Part shown: positions 3,172-21,171 of the stretch, piece by piece
Layout of the letters: every line of letters begins with the position of its first letter
How positions within the stretch are numbered: position 1 is the first letter of the stretch
Virus record (IMG/VR): IMGVR_UViG_3300021960_000404
Span: 1-27,426 of that record
Source: a virus
Length of the DNA: 27,426 bases
Strand: one strand, 5' to 3'
Notes under the pieces: model-generated
What the model was told of the DNA's origin: nothing
The model's input: the letters and a program-made list of their open reading frames with translations, nothing else
Database searches by the model: none
Made by a program: the position numbers and the translations under genes

Positions 3172-4473
3172 ATGGATAATGAAGATCAATTTGTAGAAAA
3201 TCAATATAAAGAATGGTTAGAGAATAACGATATATCTAAAGTGGAAGATATAGATGAAAAACACTTAAAAGAAAGTGTTGAAAAAGATTTAGCCTTTGTA
3301 TCTAAAATGACCGTACAAGAATATACATTGTACGAGAAGTGGATAGAAGTCCACGAAAAATATCCTACAGCCGAAACAAGTAGTTTCTTTGATGATAAAC
3401 CAGCTCTTATAGACCCACAGCAAGAGGCCTTTATTAAATCAGTTAAAAACAATATTTGGATTCCTGAGTCACCAGATGATATAGAAAAATTAGAACCTGT
3501 ATTAGAATTTACAGATGATACCGAATTAAATTATGATGGTAAAAAGAGAAGAAGTGATCTATCAGAAAAGTGGAATACATTAAGAACATTTTTATCCACT
3601 ATGAAAAACAACTCTAATATTGGTCGTCAACTATTCTTTATAGTAAAAGATAAGATTACTGAAAAGTACCTAGGCGTGATATGTATATCAGGCGACTTTA
3701 TGGATTTAACACCACGTGATAAGTCAATAGGTTGGAGTAGAGAAATTAAAACATTTAAGGGTAAGATTAATCATACAGCCATTGGTTCATCTATTGTACC
3801 AACACAGCCATTAGGTTATTCATTTACAGGTGGTAAACTATTAGCGTATTTGTGTTTAAGTGATGATGTACAGAATATATGGAAAGAAAAATATGGCGAT
3901 ACATTAGTAGGTGTAACAACCACTAGTTTATATGGTAAGGCAAAGGCTAATACATTATCTCAGTATGATGGATTAAGATTTTGGAAAAGAATGGGTTTTA
4001 CAACAGGCTCAGTATCGTTTCAACCTAGTAGGCCAGTTAGAAATATGATATGGACTTGGTTAAAGAAAAATCATACAAGAAAGTATTGGGAATGGCACGA
4101 AGCCAAAAGACCAAACGGCCAACCATTAAAAAGAGATCACAAGAATAGATCATTGAACTTTACATATTCAAAATTAGACATACCAAAAGAATACATTAGA
4201 ACTGAACATCAAAGAGGTATCTATTTTACAAGATTATATAAAAATACAGATGAGTTTTTAAGAGGTGAAATAGAACAAAAAGATTTAGTTAAAGAAATTG
4301 ATACAAGTACAGAAGCTTTGGTTAAAGTGTGGAAAGATAAACACGCTAGAAAAAGAGTTAAATCCCTAGTTGAACAAAACAGATACTCAACCGATTCTCA
4401 TTTTTATGATGATTTAATCTATTTAAATTGGGAAGAATGTAAAGAGAAGTTTTTAGGTCAAGTAGGTCGTTAA
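3172..4473 (+). CDS. DUF4338 (DruA-like) domain protein, copy 1
   Basis: This 433-residue protein has an acidic N-terminal ~110 residues and then a domain resembling DUF4338, the domain of the Druantia defence protein DruA. Matching blocks are LFFIVKDK, a core RDKSIGWS (DruA family: RDrWIGWs), SSIVPTQPLGY where the family has an RFLILP-like strand, GGKLLAYL, W..KYGD, TTSLYG and YDGLRFWKRMGFTTG. The C-terminal ~150 residues are basic and helical. A diverged paralogue lies at 20044-21171. The biochemical role of DUF4338 is not established; DNA binding or modification, or counter-defence, are possibilities. It is transcribed from a probable leaderless promoter and its stop codon directly abuts tRNA-Gly. 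The domain name is from remembered motif patterns. Confidence 0.65.
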   Translation: MDNEDQFVENQYKEWLENNDISKVEDIDEKHLKESVEKDLAFVSKMTVQEYTLYEKWIEVHEKYPTAETSSFFDDKPALIDPQQEAFIKSVKNNIWIPESPDDIEKLEPVLEFTDDTELNYDGKKRRSDLSEKWNTLRTFLSTMKNNSNIGRQLFFIVKDKITEKYLGVICISGDFMDLTPRDKSIGWSREIKTFKGKINHTAIGSSIVPTQPLGYSFTGGKLLAYLCLSDDVQNIWKEKYGDTLVGVTTTSLYGKAKANTLSQYDGLRFWKRMGFTTGSVSFQPSRPVRNMIWTWLKKNHTRKYWEWHEAKRPNGQPLKRDHKNRSLNFTYSKLDIPKEYIRTEHQRGIYFTRLYKNTDEFLRGEIEQKDLVKEIDTSTEALVKVWKDKHARKRVKSLVEQNRYSTDSHFYDDLIYLNWEECKEKFLGQVGR

Positions 4474-4548: not shown

Positions 4549-4612
4549 ATACATAAGAACAAAACTAGAACATCTAATATAAAAACAAGTAAAATCAACG
4601 ATATTTAATGGC

Positions 4613-4640
4613 TTGACTTTGGAGACCTATATGATAGGAT
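4613..4640 (+). promoter_or_regulatory. Promoter-like TTGACT-N16-TAGGAT
   Basis: TTGACT (4613-4618), a 16-nt spacer and TAGGAT (4635-4640), in a GGCTTGACTTT context shared with the elements at 4717 and 7087. It lies 6 nt before the ATG of the membrane micropeptide at 4647. The AGGA inside TAGGAT could instead be a Shine-Dalgarno, so the -10 role is less sure than the -35. The rest of 4549-4646 is plain AT-rich sequence. Confidence 0.45.
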
Positions 4641-4646
4641 AACCAT

Positions 4647-4742
4647 ATGAAAGCGGCCATTTTTTTATTATTTTTTCTTTTTTTGTTTATGGCCGCTTTC
4701 TATAGAATTTTTAGGCTTGACTTTTTCAAAACTTTAATATAG
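4647..4742 (+). CDS. Putative 31-aa membrane micropeptide
   Basis: ATG at 4647, stop TAG at 4740-4742. The product starts MKAAIFLLFFLFLFMAAFYR and ends with a short Arg/Lys/Asp-containing tail: one obvious transmembrane helix of about 18 residues with a positive inside-type tail. AGGA sits 7 nt before the ATG. The nucleotide sequence is itself a perfect 12-bp inverted repeat, so the reading frame may be incidental to an RNA hairpin. Two facts favour coding: the uninterrupted hydrophobic frame and a second peptide of the same kind (7057-7158) before CobS. It stops 9 nt before the CobT-like gene. Confidence 0.45.
   Translation: MKAAIFLLFFLFLFMAAFYRIFRLDFFKTLI
4649..4700 (+). repeat. Perfect 12-bp inverted repeat with T-rich loop
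   Basis: GAAAGCGGCCAT (4649-4660) and ATGGCCGCTTTC (4689-4700) are exact reverse complements around a 28-nt loop that is almost all T. The stem is GC-rich against a very AT-rich background. It is not a textbook terminator, because the T run is in the loop and only a short AT stretch follows the stem. It begins where the predicted transcript from the 4613 promoter would start. Confidence 0.85.
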
Positions 4743-4745
4743 GAT
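4717..4745 (+). promoter_or_regulatory. Promoter-like TTGACT-N17-TAGGAT for the CobT-like gene
   Basis: TTGACT (4717-4722), a 17-nt spacer and TAGGAT (4740-4745), ending 6 nt before the ATG at 4752. This is the same TAGGAT-to-ATG distance as at 4647. The mRNA is either leaderless, or AGGA acts as a Shine-Dalgarno for a transcript from further up. The 18 nt at 4707-4724 are repeated exactly at 7077-7094. Confidence 0.5.
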
Positions 4746-4751
4746 ATACAT

Positions 4752-8370: not shown

Positions 8371-8417
8371 GTGTAGTCCTAGGTGGAGGGGTAGTGCCCT
8401 CCACCACCAAACTACAC
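8371..8417 (+). promoter_or_regulatory. Leader hairpin before the bS21 gene
   Basis: The inner stem is GGTGGAGGG (8382-8390) with CCCTCCACC (8397-8405), 9 perfect pairs and a 6-nt loop. The outer stem is GTGTAGT (8371-8377) with ACTACAC (8411-8417), 7 pairs, separated by an asymmetric internal loop. No T run follows, so it is unlikely to be an intrinsic terminator. The CCCTCC strand could alternatively pair with the Shine-Dalgarno AAGGAGAGGAGG (8421-8432), which suggests translational control. Confidence 0.8.
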
Positions 8418-8440
8418 CGAAAGGAGAGGAGGTAAAAAAT

Positions 8441-8650
8441 TTGTCAGTTACAATTCAAGTAAGAAATGGTAATTTAGAACAGGCTATGAGAGTGCTTAAG
8501 AAAAAAGTACAAAAAGATGGCCTTTTAAAAGATTTAAAGATGAAACAATACTATGAAAAACCGTCAGAAAGAAAAAGACGTAAGAAAAAAGAAGGTATTG
8601 CTAACTATAAAAAGAAGATGAAAAAGTTATTGTTGACTAGAGGATATTAG
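8441..8650 (+). CDS. rpsU: Ribosomal protein bS21 homologue
   Basis: 69 residues with the bS21 signature throughout: a VTIQVRNGNLEQAMRVLKKK start, a KDLKMKQYYEKPSERKRRKK centre and a basic C-terminal helix. Length is typical for bS21 (about 70). bS21 sits on the 30S platform beside the anti-Shine-Dalgarno end of 16S rRNA and affects initiation; a phage copy could replace or supplement the host's. The start is TTG at 8441, supported by a very strong 12-nt purine Shine-Dalgarno (8421-8432) 8 nt upstream; no ATG fits. A stable hairpin precedes it. bS21 genes are known in SAR11 and other phages. Confidence 0.95.
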   Translation: MSVTIQVRNGNLEQAMRVLKKKVQKDGLLKDLKMKQYYEKPSERKRRKKKEGIANYKKKMKKLLLTRGY

Positions 8651-8659
8651 AATTTCAAG

Positions 8660-8804
8660 TTTTTACGCCGATTTTGTTTTATATATATTATTGTTAAGGC
8701 TATTCGTAAGTCCTTAACGGCGTAAGAAACCCGATAAGAAATTTATCGGTGTCGCAAAACGGTGACCTTTGGCAGTTTGTACTCCGTGACAAAAGAAACT
8801 GCCA
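8660..8804 (+). ncRNA. Candidate structured RNA upstream of hsp20
   Basis: The gene-free stretch 8651-8927 (277 nt) contains four strong helices. 8660-8670 pairs with 8718-8728 (11 pairs with one G-U, including ACGCCG/CGGCGT). Nested inside is TTAAGG/CCTTAA (8694-8699/8712-8717). Then CCGATAA/TTATCGG (8731-8737/8743-8749, 5-nt loop) and TGGCAGTTT/AAACTGCCA (8770-8778/8796-8804, 9 pairs, 17-nt loop). GC content is higher than the surroundings. No promoter was found directly before it, so it may be processed from bS21 read-through. I do not recognise the family. The remaining 8805-8927 holds weak hairpins and the late promoter. Confidence 0.6.
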
Positions 8805-8852
8805 CTAAGCTGTGACAGAATTATCCAGTTGTAATTTTTGAAACAGCACTTA

Positions 8853-8860
8853 TATAAATA
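8853..8860 (+). promoter_or_regulatory. T4-type late promoter (TATAAATA)
   Basis: Exact match to the T4 late promoter box TATAAATA, which is read by gp55-containing RNA polymerase. Initiation is expected about 10-13 nt downstream, near 8872, giving a ~55-nt leader before hsp20 at 8928. A small hairpin TGACAA/TTGTCA (8865-8870/8884-8889) surrounds that start. Confidence 0.75.
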
Positions 8861-8927
8861 AAAGTGACAATGCCAATAGTGGGTTGTCATTACATAAAAA
8901 GAAACTTTGCTTAACAAGGAGGTTTAT

Positions 8928-9374
8928 ATGACTAACAAAGCACTTTCTATTTTTAACCAATTAAGACCTTTATCGGTAGGATTTGATGATGTATTTGATA
9001 CATTTGAGTCTTTCTTTGATTCAGATTTAAGAATACCAACAATTAACTACCCACCATACAATATAGTTAAGACAGGCAAAAATGCTTACGACATTGAAGT
9101 AGCATTAGCTGGTTTTAATAAAAAAGATATTGATGTTAATGTGGAAGATGGTGTATTAACTATTGAGTCTAAAGCGTCTGATAAAGACGAATCAAAAGAC
9201 GAAGATGGTAATACAATCTATAAAGGCATATCAAAAAGATACTTCAAAAGACAATTTACAATCGCTAATGATGTTGAAATCAAAGGCGCTGAATTAAAAG
9301 ACGGTCTATTGAAAGTATCAATGGAAAAGATAGTCCCAGAGTCTAAAAAACTAAGAACTATTGATATTAAATAA
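8928..9374 (+). CDS. Small heat-shock protein Hsp20
   Basis: 148 residues from the ATG at 8928, chosen for the AAGGAGG at 8916-8922; an upstream ATG at 8907 lacks a ribosome site. The alpha-crystallin domain is clear: YNIVKTGKNAYDIEVALAGF, a DVNVEDGVLTIES strand pair, GISKRYFKRQF, ELKDGLLKVSMEK and a short C-terminal extension containing the IDIK end. These ATP-independent holdases prevent aggregation, and are common in marine T4-like phages, where capsid-assembly assistance has been proposed. The exact late promoter upstream fits a late role. It is followed by an inverted repeat that also carries the next promoter. Confidence 0.95.
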   Translation: MTNKALSIFNQLRPLSVGFDDVFDTFESFFDSDLRIPTINYPPYNIVKTGKNAYDIEVALAGFNKKDIDVNVEDGVLTIESKASDKDESKDEDGNTIYKGISKRYFKRQFTIANDVEIKGAELKDGLLKVSMEKIVPESKKLRTIDIK

Positions 9375-9383
9375 TTAAAATAG

Positions 9384-9417
9384 AGAGGCCAAAGGAGCAT
9401 TGACTTTTTTGGCCTCT
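9384..9417 (+). repeat. Inverted repeat with promoter -35 in its loop (module 1)
   Basis: AGAGGCCAAA (9384-9393) and TTTGGCCTCT (9408-9417) are perfect reverse complements with a 14-nt loop that contains the TTGACT -35. It follows the hsp20 stop by 9 nt and could serve as a transcript 3' end or as an operator. A close copy of the whole arrangement lies at 10521-10566. Confidence 0.8.
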
Positions 9418-9428
9418 TATGATATTAT
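9400..9428 (+). promoter_or_regulatory. Sigma70-like promoter for the ParB-like gene
   Basis: TTGACT (9400-9405), a 17-nt spacer and TATTAT (9423-9428). The expected start is near 9435, 3 nt before a 9-bp hairpin. The leader is about 98 nt with AAGGAG (9520-9525) before the ATG at 9533. Confidence 0.7.
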
Positions 9429-9437
9429 AAGTATATA

Positions 9438-9510
9438 ATCATTAAAATTATTTAATGATATATTAAAACAAAAATTATGGCTTTAGTCTTTGAACTAATA
9501 CTATAATTTT
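9438..9510 (+). promoter_or_regulatory. Two-hairpin 5' leader of the ParB-like gene
   Basis: ATCATTAAA/TTTAATGAT (9438-9446/9451-9459) is a 9-bp stem with a 4-nt loop, expected within about 3 nt of the mRNA 5' end. A second stem pairs AAAATTAT (9471-9478) with ATAATTTT (9503-9510), with an inner TTAGT/ACTAA. Both are AT-only or nearly so. 5'-terminal hairpins of this kind can protect mRNA from decay. Confidence 0.5.
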
Positions 9511-9532
9511 ACAAATGAAAAGGAGATATATT

Positions 9533-10510
9533 ATGTCATATAATATACCAAACATTGAGGACTTTACATATGTTCCTCCAAAAAATCCACTACCAGGCGT
9601 TGAGTGGGTTGAAAGAAAAAAAGTTAAATTAAGTGATATTAACTATGACGCCAATCTTAATAAAATTGCCAGACTCAATGGCGTAAATCCAAGTCACACC
9701 AAAGCATTAGAAGAATCTTATAAAGCAGGTATTGATAAAGAAAAACCTTTGCCTGTATTAGAAGAAACGGCTGGTGTTTTTGAGAAGTATGCTCCTGTTG
9801 ATTATTTTCATAGAGGCAGAGCACACCAAAACTTAGGTTGGAAAGAATATGTCTTTGACATTTACAAATTTGCTGATGAAAAAGCAAGAGTTTCTTTTCA
9901 ATTATTAATGAACGATCACCCACCACAAGGCGTTGCTTCAACAGCTGATATAGAACAAGCTGGTATTAAGTTAATTCAAAAAAACAAATTAGCTAAAAAT
10001 GAGAATGAAGTTAAAAAGTGGGTGAAAATGATCGCTCCTAAAAAACACGCTTCTACCAGAGGTAATATTGTTAAAAAAATATGTCAACAAACCAAGACTA
10101 AACAAGCTTGGATGACTCTTTCTAAAAAAGATTTAGAAAAATTTTATCACAATTACGGACAAGGTAGAACTTTAGGTGGTATGTTTGACATCACAAGAGA
10201 TCAATATGGTTATGATGTACAAACAAAATATGAATCAACTTACGCTATTAGGTCTTTAAAAAGATTAGCTGAAAGTGGTAAGAAATCATATTTTCTACTA
10301 CACACCGATAGTCCTGTTAAAAACAAAGATGGCCACATTATGAGGGCTGATATGTTAAGAAGGCTAGAGGGTATCGAAGCTTCATTAAAATACTTTGTTA
10401 AATGGTACAATAAACACAAAAAAATGCCGTGGGAAATTGTTGGTTTTCTTCCACAGGAAGATGGAGAGGATCCAACTAAAATTGTATCTATTAGCAAATA
10501 CAAGAAGTAA
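9533..10510 (+). CDS. ParB/Srx-like domain protein
   Basis: 325 residues from the ATG at 9533, chosen for AAGGAG 7 nt upstream. The N-terminal ~130 residues look like a ParB/sulfiredoxin-type domain: a KVKLSDI strand, a PLPVLEE strand, then DYFHRGRAHQNLGWKEYVFDIY, where the family has a G-x-H-R-x-x-A-x-x-x-L-G block. The middle and C-terminal parts are helical and basic, consistent with DNA binding. In phages such proteins often accompany DNA methyltransferases, and a D12-class one follows here. The nuclease or NTPase activity of this family cannot be judged from sequence. Alternative: an unrelated DNA-binding protein. It has its own promoter and long leader. Confidence 0.45.
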   Translation: MSYNIPNIEDFTYVPPKNPLPGVEWVERKKVKLSDINYDANLNKIARLNGVNPSHTKALEESYKAGIDKEKPLPVLEETAGVFEKYAPVDYFHRGRAHQNLGWKEYVFDIYKFADEKARVSFQLLMNDHPPQGVASTADIEQAGIKLIQKNKLAKNENEVKKWVKMIAPKKHASTRGNIVKKICQQTKTKQAWMTLSKKDLEKFYHNYGQGRTLGGMFDITRDQYGYDVQTKYESTYAIRSLKRLAESGKKSYFLLHTDSPVKNKDGHIMRADMLRRLEGIEASLKYFVKWYNKHKKMPWEIVGFLPQEDGEDPTKIVSISKYKK

Positions 10511-13547: not shown

Positions 13548-13556
13548 GAGAATAGA

Positions 13557-13694
13557 ATGGCTAAACGAACATTTTTTAGAAAAATAATAGTTAAATTAAG
13601 AATGTGGTATGCTGATATACGAGGTCACCACGGTAAACGTTGGAATTACGAACCAGGTGAATGGTATATGGGTAGACACGATAAGAAAAAATAG
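13557..13694 (+). CDS. Small basic protein, 45 aa
   Basis: ATG at 13557, 9 nt after gp44, stop TAG at 13692-13694. The 45-residue product is very basic and aromatic: MAKRTFFRKIIVKLRMWYAD, then an RGHHGKRWNYEPGEWYMGRH-like second half. The amphipathic basic N-terminus could bind nucleic acid or a membrane surface. The ribosome site is weak (AGAGAAT). It sits between gp44 and gp62, which are adjacent in T4, so it is an insertion in the clamp-loader pair. No function is recognised. Confidence 0.6.
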   Translation: MAKRTFFRKIIVKLRMWYADIRGHHGKRWNYEPGEWYMGRHDKKK

Positions 13695-13708
13695 AAACCA
13701 TATTTGTT

Positions 13709-20043: not shown

Positions 20044-21171
20044 ATGGATATTAGTGAAATGGAACAAAGAAGAACATTAACAAAAGAACAAGCTTTATAT
20101 TGTGCTGGTATATTCAATGACTATTTTAGTCAGTTTGATAGAATAGATCAGTATATGAGAGATCAAAAGCTTTCTCAATTAGAAACAAACAATTCAGCTG
20201 GTACATTATTTGATGATGGTCCTGAAGAAGATTTATTTAATGATAATGATATGCCACCTGAAAAAATGAACTTTGAAATTAAAGTTATAGTCAATGAAAG
20301 ATTTGATAAACTTTTAAATATGGTTTCTTCTCACACAAATATGTCAAGTGTTCCAGGTAAGAACTTAAAGATAGTTGTTATGGAAACTAACACACAAAAA
20401 ATAGTTGGATTTATTAGACTATCATCACCAGTTATTAATATGAAACCACGTAATGAACTATTAGGTCAAGTACCAGATTTGAAATCATTTAACAAAACTT
20501 CTATTATGGGTTTTGTAATTGTGCCTGTGCAACCTTTTGGTTTTAATTATTTGGGTGGTAAATTATTAGCGGCCGTTTGTTGTTCACACGAAGTAAGAGA
20601 AATGATGAACAGTAAATATGATATGAACTTAGCTCTATTTGAAACGACATCTTTATATGGTAATAGTAAATCATCAAGTCAATATGATGGTATGAAACCA
20701 TTTTTAAGATATAAAGGTTTAACAGATAGTGATTTTATTCCTTTGATACACGGCAAACCTTACCACGACTTATCTAACTTTGTTGAAAACAATGTAGGCA
20801 AATTAGTTAAAGATGACGCTTCAAGTAAAAAGTTAAAACTTACAACAGCCATCATTGGTTTAATTAAAAGAAGTTTAGATGGTACTGATTTAGAGAATTT
20901 TAATACAACTATTAATAACGCTAAAAAATTAACTGAAAGAAAAAGATATTACTCTTGTAATTATGGAATTAAAAACTATATTAATATTGTAAATGGTAAA
21001 GAAACCGAGATTGTTAAAGACGACAATTACGATAAACATTACCTAAATAATATAACGGACTGGTGGAAAAATAAAGCAACCAATCGTTATAATAATCTTA
21101 AAAATGAAAATCGTTTGAGGAGAGAACTTGAAATATGGTCACCAAGTGCACAGATACAAATTATCAGATGA
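20044..21171 (+). CDS. DUF4338 (DruA-like) domain protein, copy 2
   Basis: 375 residues, a diverged paralogue of the protein at 3172. Shared blocks are a LKIVVMETNTQKIVGFIRL strand pair, VPVQPFGFNYLGGKLLAAV (copy 1: VPTQPLGYSFTGGKLLAYL), CSHEVREMMNSKYDM, ETTSLYGNSK and SQYDGMKPFLRYKGLT (copy 1: SQYDGLRFWKRMGFT). It lacks the RDxxIGW block, which reads PRNELLGQV here, so the two copies have diverged at one of the family's most conserved sites. The acidic N-terminus and basic helical C-terminus are kept. Function is unknown. Its end overlaps the next gene by 37 nt. Confidence 0.6.
   Translation: MDISEMEQRRTLTKEQALYCAGIFNDYFSQFDRIDQYMRDQKLSQLETNNSAGTLFDDGPEEDLFNDNDMPPEKMNFEIKVIVNERFDKLLNMVSSHTNMSSVPGKNLKIVVMETNTQKIVGFIRLSSPVINMKPRNELLGQVPDLKSFNKTSIMGFVIVPVQPFGFNYLGGKLLAAVCCSHEVREMMNSKYDMNLALFETTSLYGNSKSSSQYDGMKPFLRYKGLTDSDFIPLIHGKPYHDLSNFVENNVGKLVKDDASSKKLKLTTAIIGLIKRSLDGTDLENFNTTINNAKKLTERKRYYSCNYGIKNYINIVNGKETEIVKDDNYDKHYLNNITDWWKNKATNRYNNLKNENRLRRELEIWSPSAQIQIIR

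Follow-up and report, generated by a model that had tools for sequence, protein, structure and literature searches.

A conserved plus-strand RNA between rpsU and hsp20 of T4-like pelagiphages, with a constant 5′ hairpin and exchangeable pseudoknots

The gap between rpsU and hsp20 of a T4-like pelagimyophage holds a previously undescribed, conserved structured RNA without an Rfam match, in which a 5′ hairpin stays constant and the pseudoknots that follow it are swapped between phages. The structure is conserved on the plus strand, present in single copy, and retained where either neighboring gene is no longer beside it. Nucleotides 8660-8804 are probably a free-standing, phage-encoded RNA lying between the cobS-rpsU operon and hsp20, transcribed from its first module (module A), and acting in trans. 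The window in which it was found, a 27,426-nt (27.4-kb) IMG/VR record, comes from a T4-like myovirus to which, among cultured phages, Mosig and HTVC008M of Pelagibacter are nearest at the rpsU-hsp20 locus; the hosts of this group are SAR11, the most abundant marine bacteria. The initial annotation had placed an unrecognised structured RNA in a 277-nt gap of an otherwise gapless genome. The gap (8651-8927) is indeed the biggest in the window, but the genome is not gapless, since the window has others of about 120-200 nt (4549-4751, 9375-9514, and 13548-13708 among them). It consists of three parts: the structured RNA (8660-8804), a probable double promoter (8829-8860), and the hsp20 leader (8865-8927).

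Table 1. Features in and around the rpsU-hsp20 gap, in window coordinates; arm-swap z values are without correction for kinship of loci.
Feature	Coordinates	Strand	Evidence or detail
rpsU (phage bS21), upstream neighbor	8441..8650	+	PF01165, E 1.6e-17; phrog_21469
Outer stem UUUUUACGCCG / CGGCGUAAGAA	8660-8670 / 8718-8728	+	fold; arm-swap z -12, 47 distinct helices
Promoter-like segment	8662..8691	+	TTTACG (8662) with TATATT/TATTAT; TATATATATTAT at 8680-8691; consensus match only
5′ hairpin GUUAAGG-C[UAUUCGUAA]G-U-CCUUAAC	8693..8718	+	one-base bulge, conserved loop; covariation, z -14
Module B hairpin CCGAUAA/UUAUCGG	8731..8749	+	H-type pseudoknot (PK1) in many relatives; stem 1 lost here
PK2 (module C), H-type pseudoknot	8759..8804	+	energies vs shuffles, covariation, arm-swap
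PK2 stem 1 ACGG / CCGU	8759-8762 / 8784-8787	+	arm-swap z -8
PK2 stem 2 UGGCAGUUU / AAACUGCCA	8770-8778 / 8796-8804	+	arm-swap z -14
Probable early/late double promoter of hsp20	8829..8860	+	TTGTAA 8829-8834, TATAAATA 8853-8860; consensus only
hsp20 leader	8865..8927	+	hairpin UGACAAUGCC..GGGUUGUCA 8865-8889; CUUUGCUU/AAGGAGG element over Shine-Dalgarno; arm-swap z -17
hsp20 (ATG 8928), downstream neighbor	8928..9374	+	PF00011, E 2.8e-18; phrog_432

The minimum free energy of the gap is -70.2 kcal/mol, where shuffles average -53.4 (z -3.9; equalled by 0/200 shuffles), the minus strand gives z -3.0, and the core 8660-8808 folded by itself gives z -4.1. All four helices of the initial annotation are present (Table 1): the long-range 11-bp stem, which includes one G-U; the 5′ hairpin; a 7-bp hairpin; and the 9-bp perfect stem, which exists, but as stem 2 of an H-type pseudoknot rather than as a hairpin. 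Neither the pseudoknots nor the swapping of modules from phage to phage had been noticed. Conservation of the helices, on which that annotation had staked its claim, is seen in relatives as compensatory changes in all tested helices across 78 non-redundant loci, and the description of an unrecognised structured RNA has thus held up. When each locus's 5′ arm was paired either with its own 3′ arm or with 3′ arms from other loci (arm-swap), own pairing was better for the hairpin, the outer stem, both stems of PK2, and the hsp20 leader hairpin (Table 1), with 16 to 47 distinct helices per stem. In fixed alignments, 95.8% of cells are paired in PK2 stem 2 (47 double changes; covariation 0.39 vs 0.15 shuffled) and 93.7% in the 5′ hairpin (85 double changes; 0.40 vs 0.14), and pairing in both is lost when the partner is slid along the alignment. 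Because G-U far outnumbers A-C among the non-Watson-Crick cells of the hairpin (25 vs 4) and of the outer stem (28 vs 2), the structure belongs to the plus strand; the 7 G-U and 6 A-C of PK2 stem 2 are uninformative on strand.

Module A spans 8660-8728 in the window. Its outer stem, with the core ACGCC..GGCGU, encloses an AT-rich box and the hairpin, which across relatives takes the form G-G-C-[NRYYCRUAA]-G-W-C-C with one base bulged and the loop conserved. Covariance model R1, trained on pelagiphage sequences, scores the window hairpin at 66.4 bits, the window itself being one of the training sequences. The box TATATATATTAT differs at one position from the T4-type late box TATAAATA, and at the equivalent position Mosig, HTVC008M, and loci L037, L047, and L061 have NATAAATA. 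A module A promoter, late or sigma-70-like, is plausible from these motifs. Mosig encodes annotated late-transcription proteins, and its NATAAATA[AG]T boxes lie mostly 13-40 nt ahead of genes, structural ones included, as expected of T4-type late promoters; the module A box in Mosig (record position 9906) is followed by a hairpin and no ORF. Late-promoter function of the module A box is nevertheless uncertain, because the window lineage has TATATATATTAT, once per genome in its two long (complete-length) records, where the other late boxes read TATAAATA; the sigma-70-like alternative, TTTACG-18-TATTAT, matches at 9/12 positions. Late-promoter prediction for these phages has been tried in print without success (PMC7029224), and a SAR11 phage transcriptome study covers the HTVC022P and HTVC027P groups, not this one (PMC12753301). 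The predicted start would fall at the base of a hairpin in module A and in the hsp20 leader alike. A second late-type box of Mosig, TATAAATAGTAATG, also without an ORF shortly downstream, lies within a long inverted repeat (AGCTAGTGAATGAT..ATCATTCACTAGCT; L328 40213-40435; Mosig 140.2-140.4 kb), possibly another structured RNA or switch.

The two modules behind the hairpin vary. Module B, which reads CCGA..UCGG or GGGNNN..NNNCCC, forms either a hairpin or a pseudoknot, and PK1 stem 1 is clear in many relatives (for example [GAGU]ua[GGGCAGU][ACUC]..[ACUGCCC] and [GGGCA]a[GGGGUG][UGCCC]..[CACCCC]). In the window array one pseudoknot is intact (PK2, with an A-rich loop 3) and the other degenerate. 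On average, the best pseudoknot energy is -19.7 for the loci and -10.9 for shuffled copies; PK2 is better than its own shuffles (p ≤ 0.05) in 61/61 loci, and the PK1 region in 46%. Longer arrays with extra pseudoknots occur in Mosig, L044, L035, L061, and L142, and stems and spacings are unrelated from one pseudoknot to the next within an array. The annotations Mosig_00014 and Mosig_00015 (hypothetical proteins; L082 3365-3613) fall inside the RNA array and are probably not genes. We also observed at least three more structured modules, inserted behind the pseudoknots and ahead of the hsp20 promoter (in L011, L012, L015; L039, L070, L135, L173; and L037, L047, L144, L147, L198), near-alike in otherwise divergent phages, which indicates that the locus exchanges RNA modules. 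The array stems were rejected as an intrinsic terminator: no terminator or T-tract follows the array on the plus strand of the window, and a T-rich stretch does so in only 11/66 loci. The RNA may therefore continue into hsp20.

We were unable to match the array to a known RNA family. Rfam 15 at gathering cut-off, applied to the window and 20 relatives, returned only tRNA, and the glutamine riboswitch elsewhere, and in permissive Rfam searches no family over the array reached its gathering score. A tmRNA was rejected, there being no ARAGORN or Rfam call (alpha_tmRNA 7.7 bits vs a cut-off of 50) and the Mosig tmRNA lying elsewhere; riboswitch and intron readings likewise found no support in the Rfam and ARAGORN searches. 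Glutamine riboswitch aptamers do lie near hsp20 in L147 (3810-3863) and L091 (70-121), as reported for Mosig and Melnitz. Open papers on these phages describe S21, the tmRNA, and the glutamine riboswitch and not the array, and an earlier description elsewhere is possible.

A careful comparison of the loci reveals that the RNA element keeps its own company. A search with hsp20 gave 80 loci, usually ordered cobS-rpsU-gap-hsp20 with gaps of about 210-660 nt, and in a search with rpsU module A lay 28-105 nt past the rpsU stop in 80/80 loci (6 of them, read by eye, with a variant loop containing C). A DNA pattern of promoter-like box plus hairpin loop matched at least 119 stretches, the full-pattern matches, among the matches listed, all being at the rpsU-hsp20 locus; the 78 non-redundant loci were drawn from these. 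R1 gave one match per genome in the five records searched. Specifically, i) where a gene is inserted before hsp20 (L061, L071-L077, Mosig), the RNA element remains beside rpsU; ii) at hsp20 loci without rpsU (L049, L055, L057, L058, L078-080), module A is absent; iii) in HTVC008M and L047, a gene separates rpsU from the RNA element; and iv) in Melnitz, whose S21 gene (35.5 kb) and hsp20 (137.9 kb) are ~40 kb apart on a circular 141.5-kb genome, hsp20 is preceded in order by an apparent intrinsic terminator (AAAAGGGG..CCCCTTTT), TATATAATATGGGTGCAGTTCGTAAGTCGTCC, and the pseudoknot GGG-uuu-UGGUAGUUU-CCC-ucacaaa-AAACUACCA. This rpsU-less site is the sole R1 match in Melnitz, at a weak E of 0.76, and the match in HTVC008M is also weak (E 0.32), so that the element is identified in these two phages by the R1 match together with position and pseudoknot. 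The Melnitz element seems severed from upstream transcription. A strict tie to rpsU was rejected, since Melnitz has the element without rpsU. Module A was absent from the five hsp20 loci examined in cyanophages and other marine T4-like phages, and no genuine copy of its pattern was found in 84,980 bacterial genomes, where it matched only by chance within a coding frame and on a contig of phage origin included in a Porticoccaceae MAG. Since the element is kept when either neighbor is removed, neither rpsU nor hsp20 is needed; this independence, with the apparent Melnitz terminator, favors a free-standing RNA unit.

We infer that transcription would begin from module A, the promoter-like box within the outer stem giving an RNA that starts at or near the bulged hairpin. 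Read-through RNA from rpsU would form the outer stem instead, and the two RNAs would fold differently, as in the T4 gene e switch. A function in trans is the one we favor: the constant 5′ hairpin with its bulged loop would be recognised by a partner, either protein or RNA, and the pseudoknots would be stable domains, open to exchange, that withstand decay or offer targets that vary. Base pairing between the loop and the hsp20 leader was considered and rejected, as only 4 bp could be found by eye. Of the three options offered by the initial annotation, a phage ncRNA is the best fit. A processed 3′ UTR of rpsU agrees less well with the loci, Melnitz having the element without rpsU beside it.

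The main rival, possible though we think it improbable, is a cis-acting element between the two cistrons, namely the rpsU operon's 3′ UTR, in which the outer stem and pseudoknots would block 3′-5′ decay or set the processing point of the rpsU mRNA, and would tell early read-through transcripts from late ones as in T4 gene e. The constant position of module A behind rpsU agrees with this, as does the covariation of an outer stem that can form only in RNA begun upstream and so suggests some function in read-through RNA as well; precedent is found in T4 genes e, soc, and 49, which have inhibitory RNA helices, the late promoters of gene e removing the 5′ strand of the helix (PMC3014915). The outer stem, however, covers no ribosome-binding site, a gene intervenes between rpsU and the element in HTVC008M and L047, and in Melnitz the element stands without rpsU behind an apparent terminator.

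We think it unlikely that the array is an RNA decoy of the pseudoknotted type III antitoxins (ToxIN, CptIN, TenpIN) guarding the phage from abortive infection, although module exchange would then mirror an arms race. The tandem H-type pseudoknots with A-rich loop 3, and array content that varies around a constant hairpin, would suit such a role, for which the pseudo-ToxI of phage PhiTE, a phage noncoding RNA that suppresses ToxIN, is a precedent (PMC3475682). Type III antitoxin arrays, however, repeat one unit beside an adjoining toxin gene (PMC5086642); here the pseudoknots differ in sequence, Pfam and PADLOC found no toxin gene adjoining the array, and no Rfam antitoxin model matches. A modular version, in which a constant hairpin and promoter would carry swappable pseudoknots imitating the antitoxins of different type III systems, has a slightly smaller chance still of being correct; if true, the phage would carry a changing set of decoy antitoxins.

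Equally doubtful is that the array belongs to an extended, structured 5′ leader, which would be transcribed from the upstream box and control hsp20 translation. The interval between array and hsp20 lacks a terminator, and hsp20 is the next gene in most loci, Melnitz included; but hsp20 has promoter-like sequences and a hairpin leader of its own immediately before it, and we rejected the array as its leader because the element is distant from hsp20 where a gene is inserted and absent at rpsU-less hsp20 loci. The initial annotation had rightly held that the element is not simply the hsp20 leader: it finishes upstream of the late promoter-like box TATAAATA, and the leader has a separate hairpin (Table 1). 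In an AT-rich region with inverted repeats one might suspect that the structure arose by chance or that it works as DNA, for instance in replication or packaging, but covariation effectively refutes this: the crossed (a-b-a′-b′) pseudoknot covariation and the G-U bias require a folded plus-strand RNA, and none of the 200 shuffles reaches the fold.

The arrangement of TTGTAA and TATAAATA before hsp20 is repeated in relatives, and a UYGCUUA..AAGGAG motif lies over the Shine-Dalgarno sequence in 77/78 hsp20 leaders. The leader of relatives resembles the ROSE RNA thermometer: ROSE_3 scores 34.1 bits in Melnitz, and ROSE scores are 30.7 in L242 and 26.8 in phage C48C1, all below the gathering cut-off of 43. 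The Rfam ROSE model does not match the window leader, and a simple fold of that leader shows accessibility little altered by temperature. Comparable leaders precede hsp20 in L346 (283-345), L338 (1421-1488), and L339-L341, with similar sequences in cyanophages P-SSM4, S-CREM1, and S-PM2. Elsewhere in the window, the rpsU leader (8375-8420) has a strong GC-rich double hairpin, GUGUAGU..ACUACAC around GGUGGAGGG..CCCUCCACC, shared by a subset of relatives and a candidate bS21 autoregulatory site, and two proteins related to each other, encoded at 3172-4473 and 20044-21171, share DUF4338, a domain of DruA (Druantia defence).

T4 RNA C and RNA D are likewise small phage RNAs of unassigned function in a T4-like phage, but are located in the tRNA region, unlike the array. 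The tmRNA and glutamine riboswitch of Melnitz and Mosig are structured RNAs of the same phages, and the tmRNA too has several pseudoknots; their loci, however, are separate from the array, in which ARAGORN and Rfam find neither. A 2010 review noted that no small trans-acting regulatory RNA from T4 had been functionally characterised and that related genomes might suggest candidates (PMC3014915). The array is such a candidate, in SAR11 phages; the cultured isolates HTVC008M, Mosig, and Melnitz carry it, and the constant hairpin with swapped pseudoknots makes the role of phage noncoding RNAs directly testable.

Tandem H-type pseudoknots like those of the array in relatives are found in the type III antitoxins ToxI, CptI, TenpI, and antiQ and in the phage pseudo-ToxI, from which the array differs in having no direct repeats of one unit and no Rfam match, in carrying an additional conserved bulged hairpin, and in being followed not by a terminator and a ToxN/AbiQ-like endoribonuclease gene but by hsp20 or genes for unrelated proteins. 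The gene 32 mRNA pseudoknot of T4, T2, and RB69, which serves gp32 autoregulation, is also H-type and from T4-like phages; the array, in contrast, lies not upstream of gene 32 but between rpsU and hsp20, and is made of several exchangeable pseudoknots rather than being the leader of the next gene. With T4 genes e, soc, and 49 the array shares a late-type box within a long helix whose formation requires read-through RNA, but its outer stem masks no ribosome-binding site, and what lies downstream is a noncoding structure.
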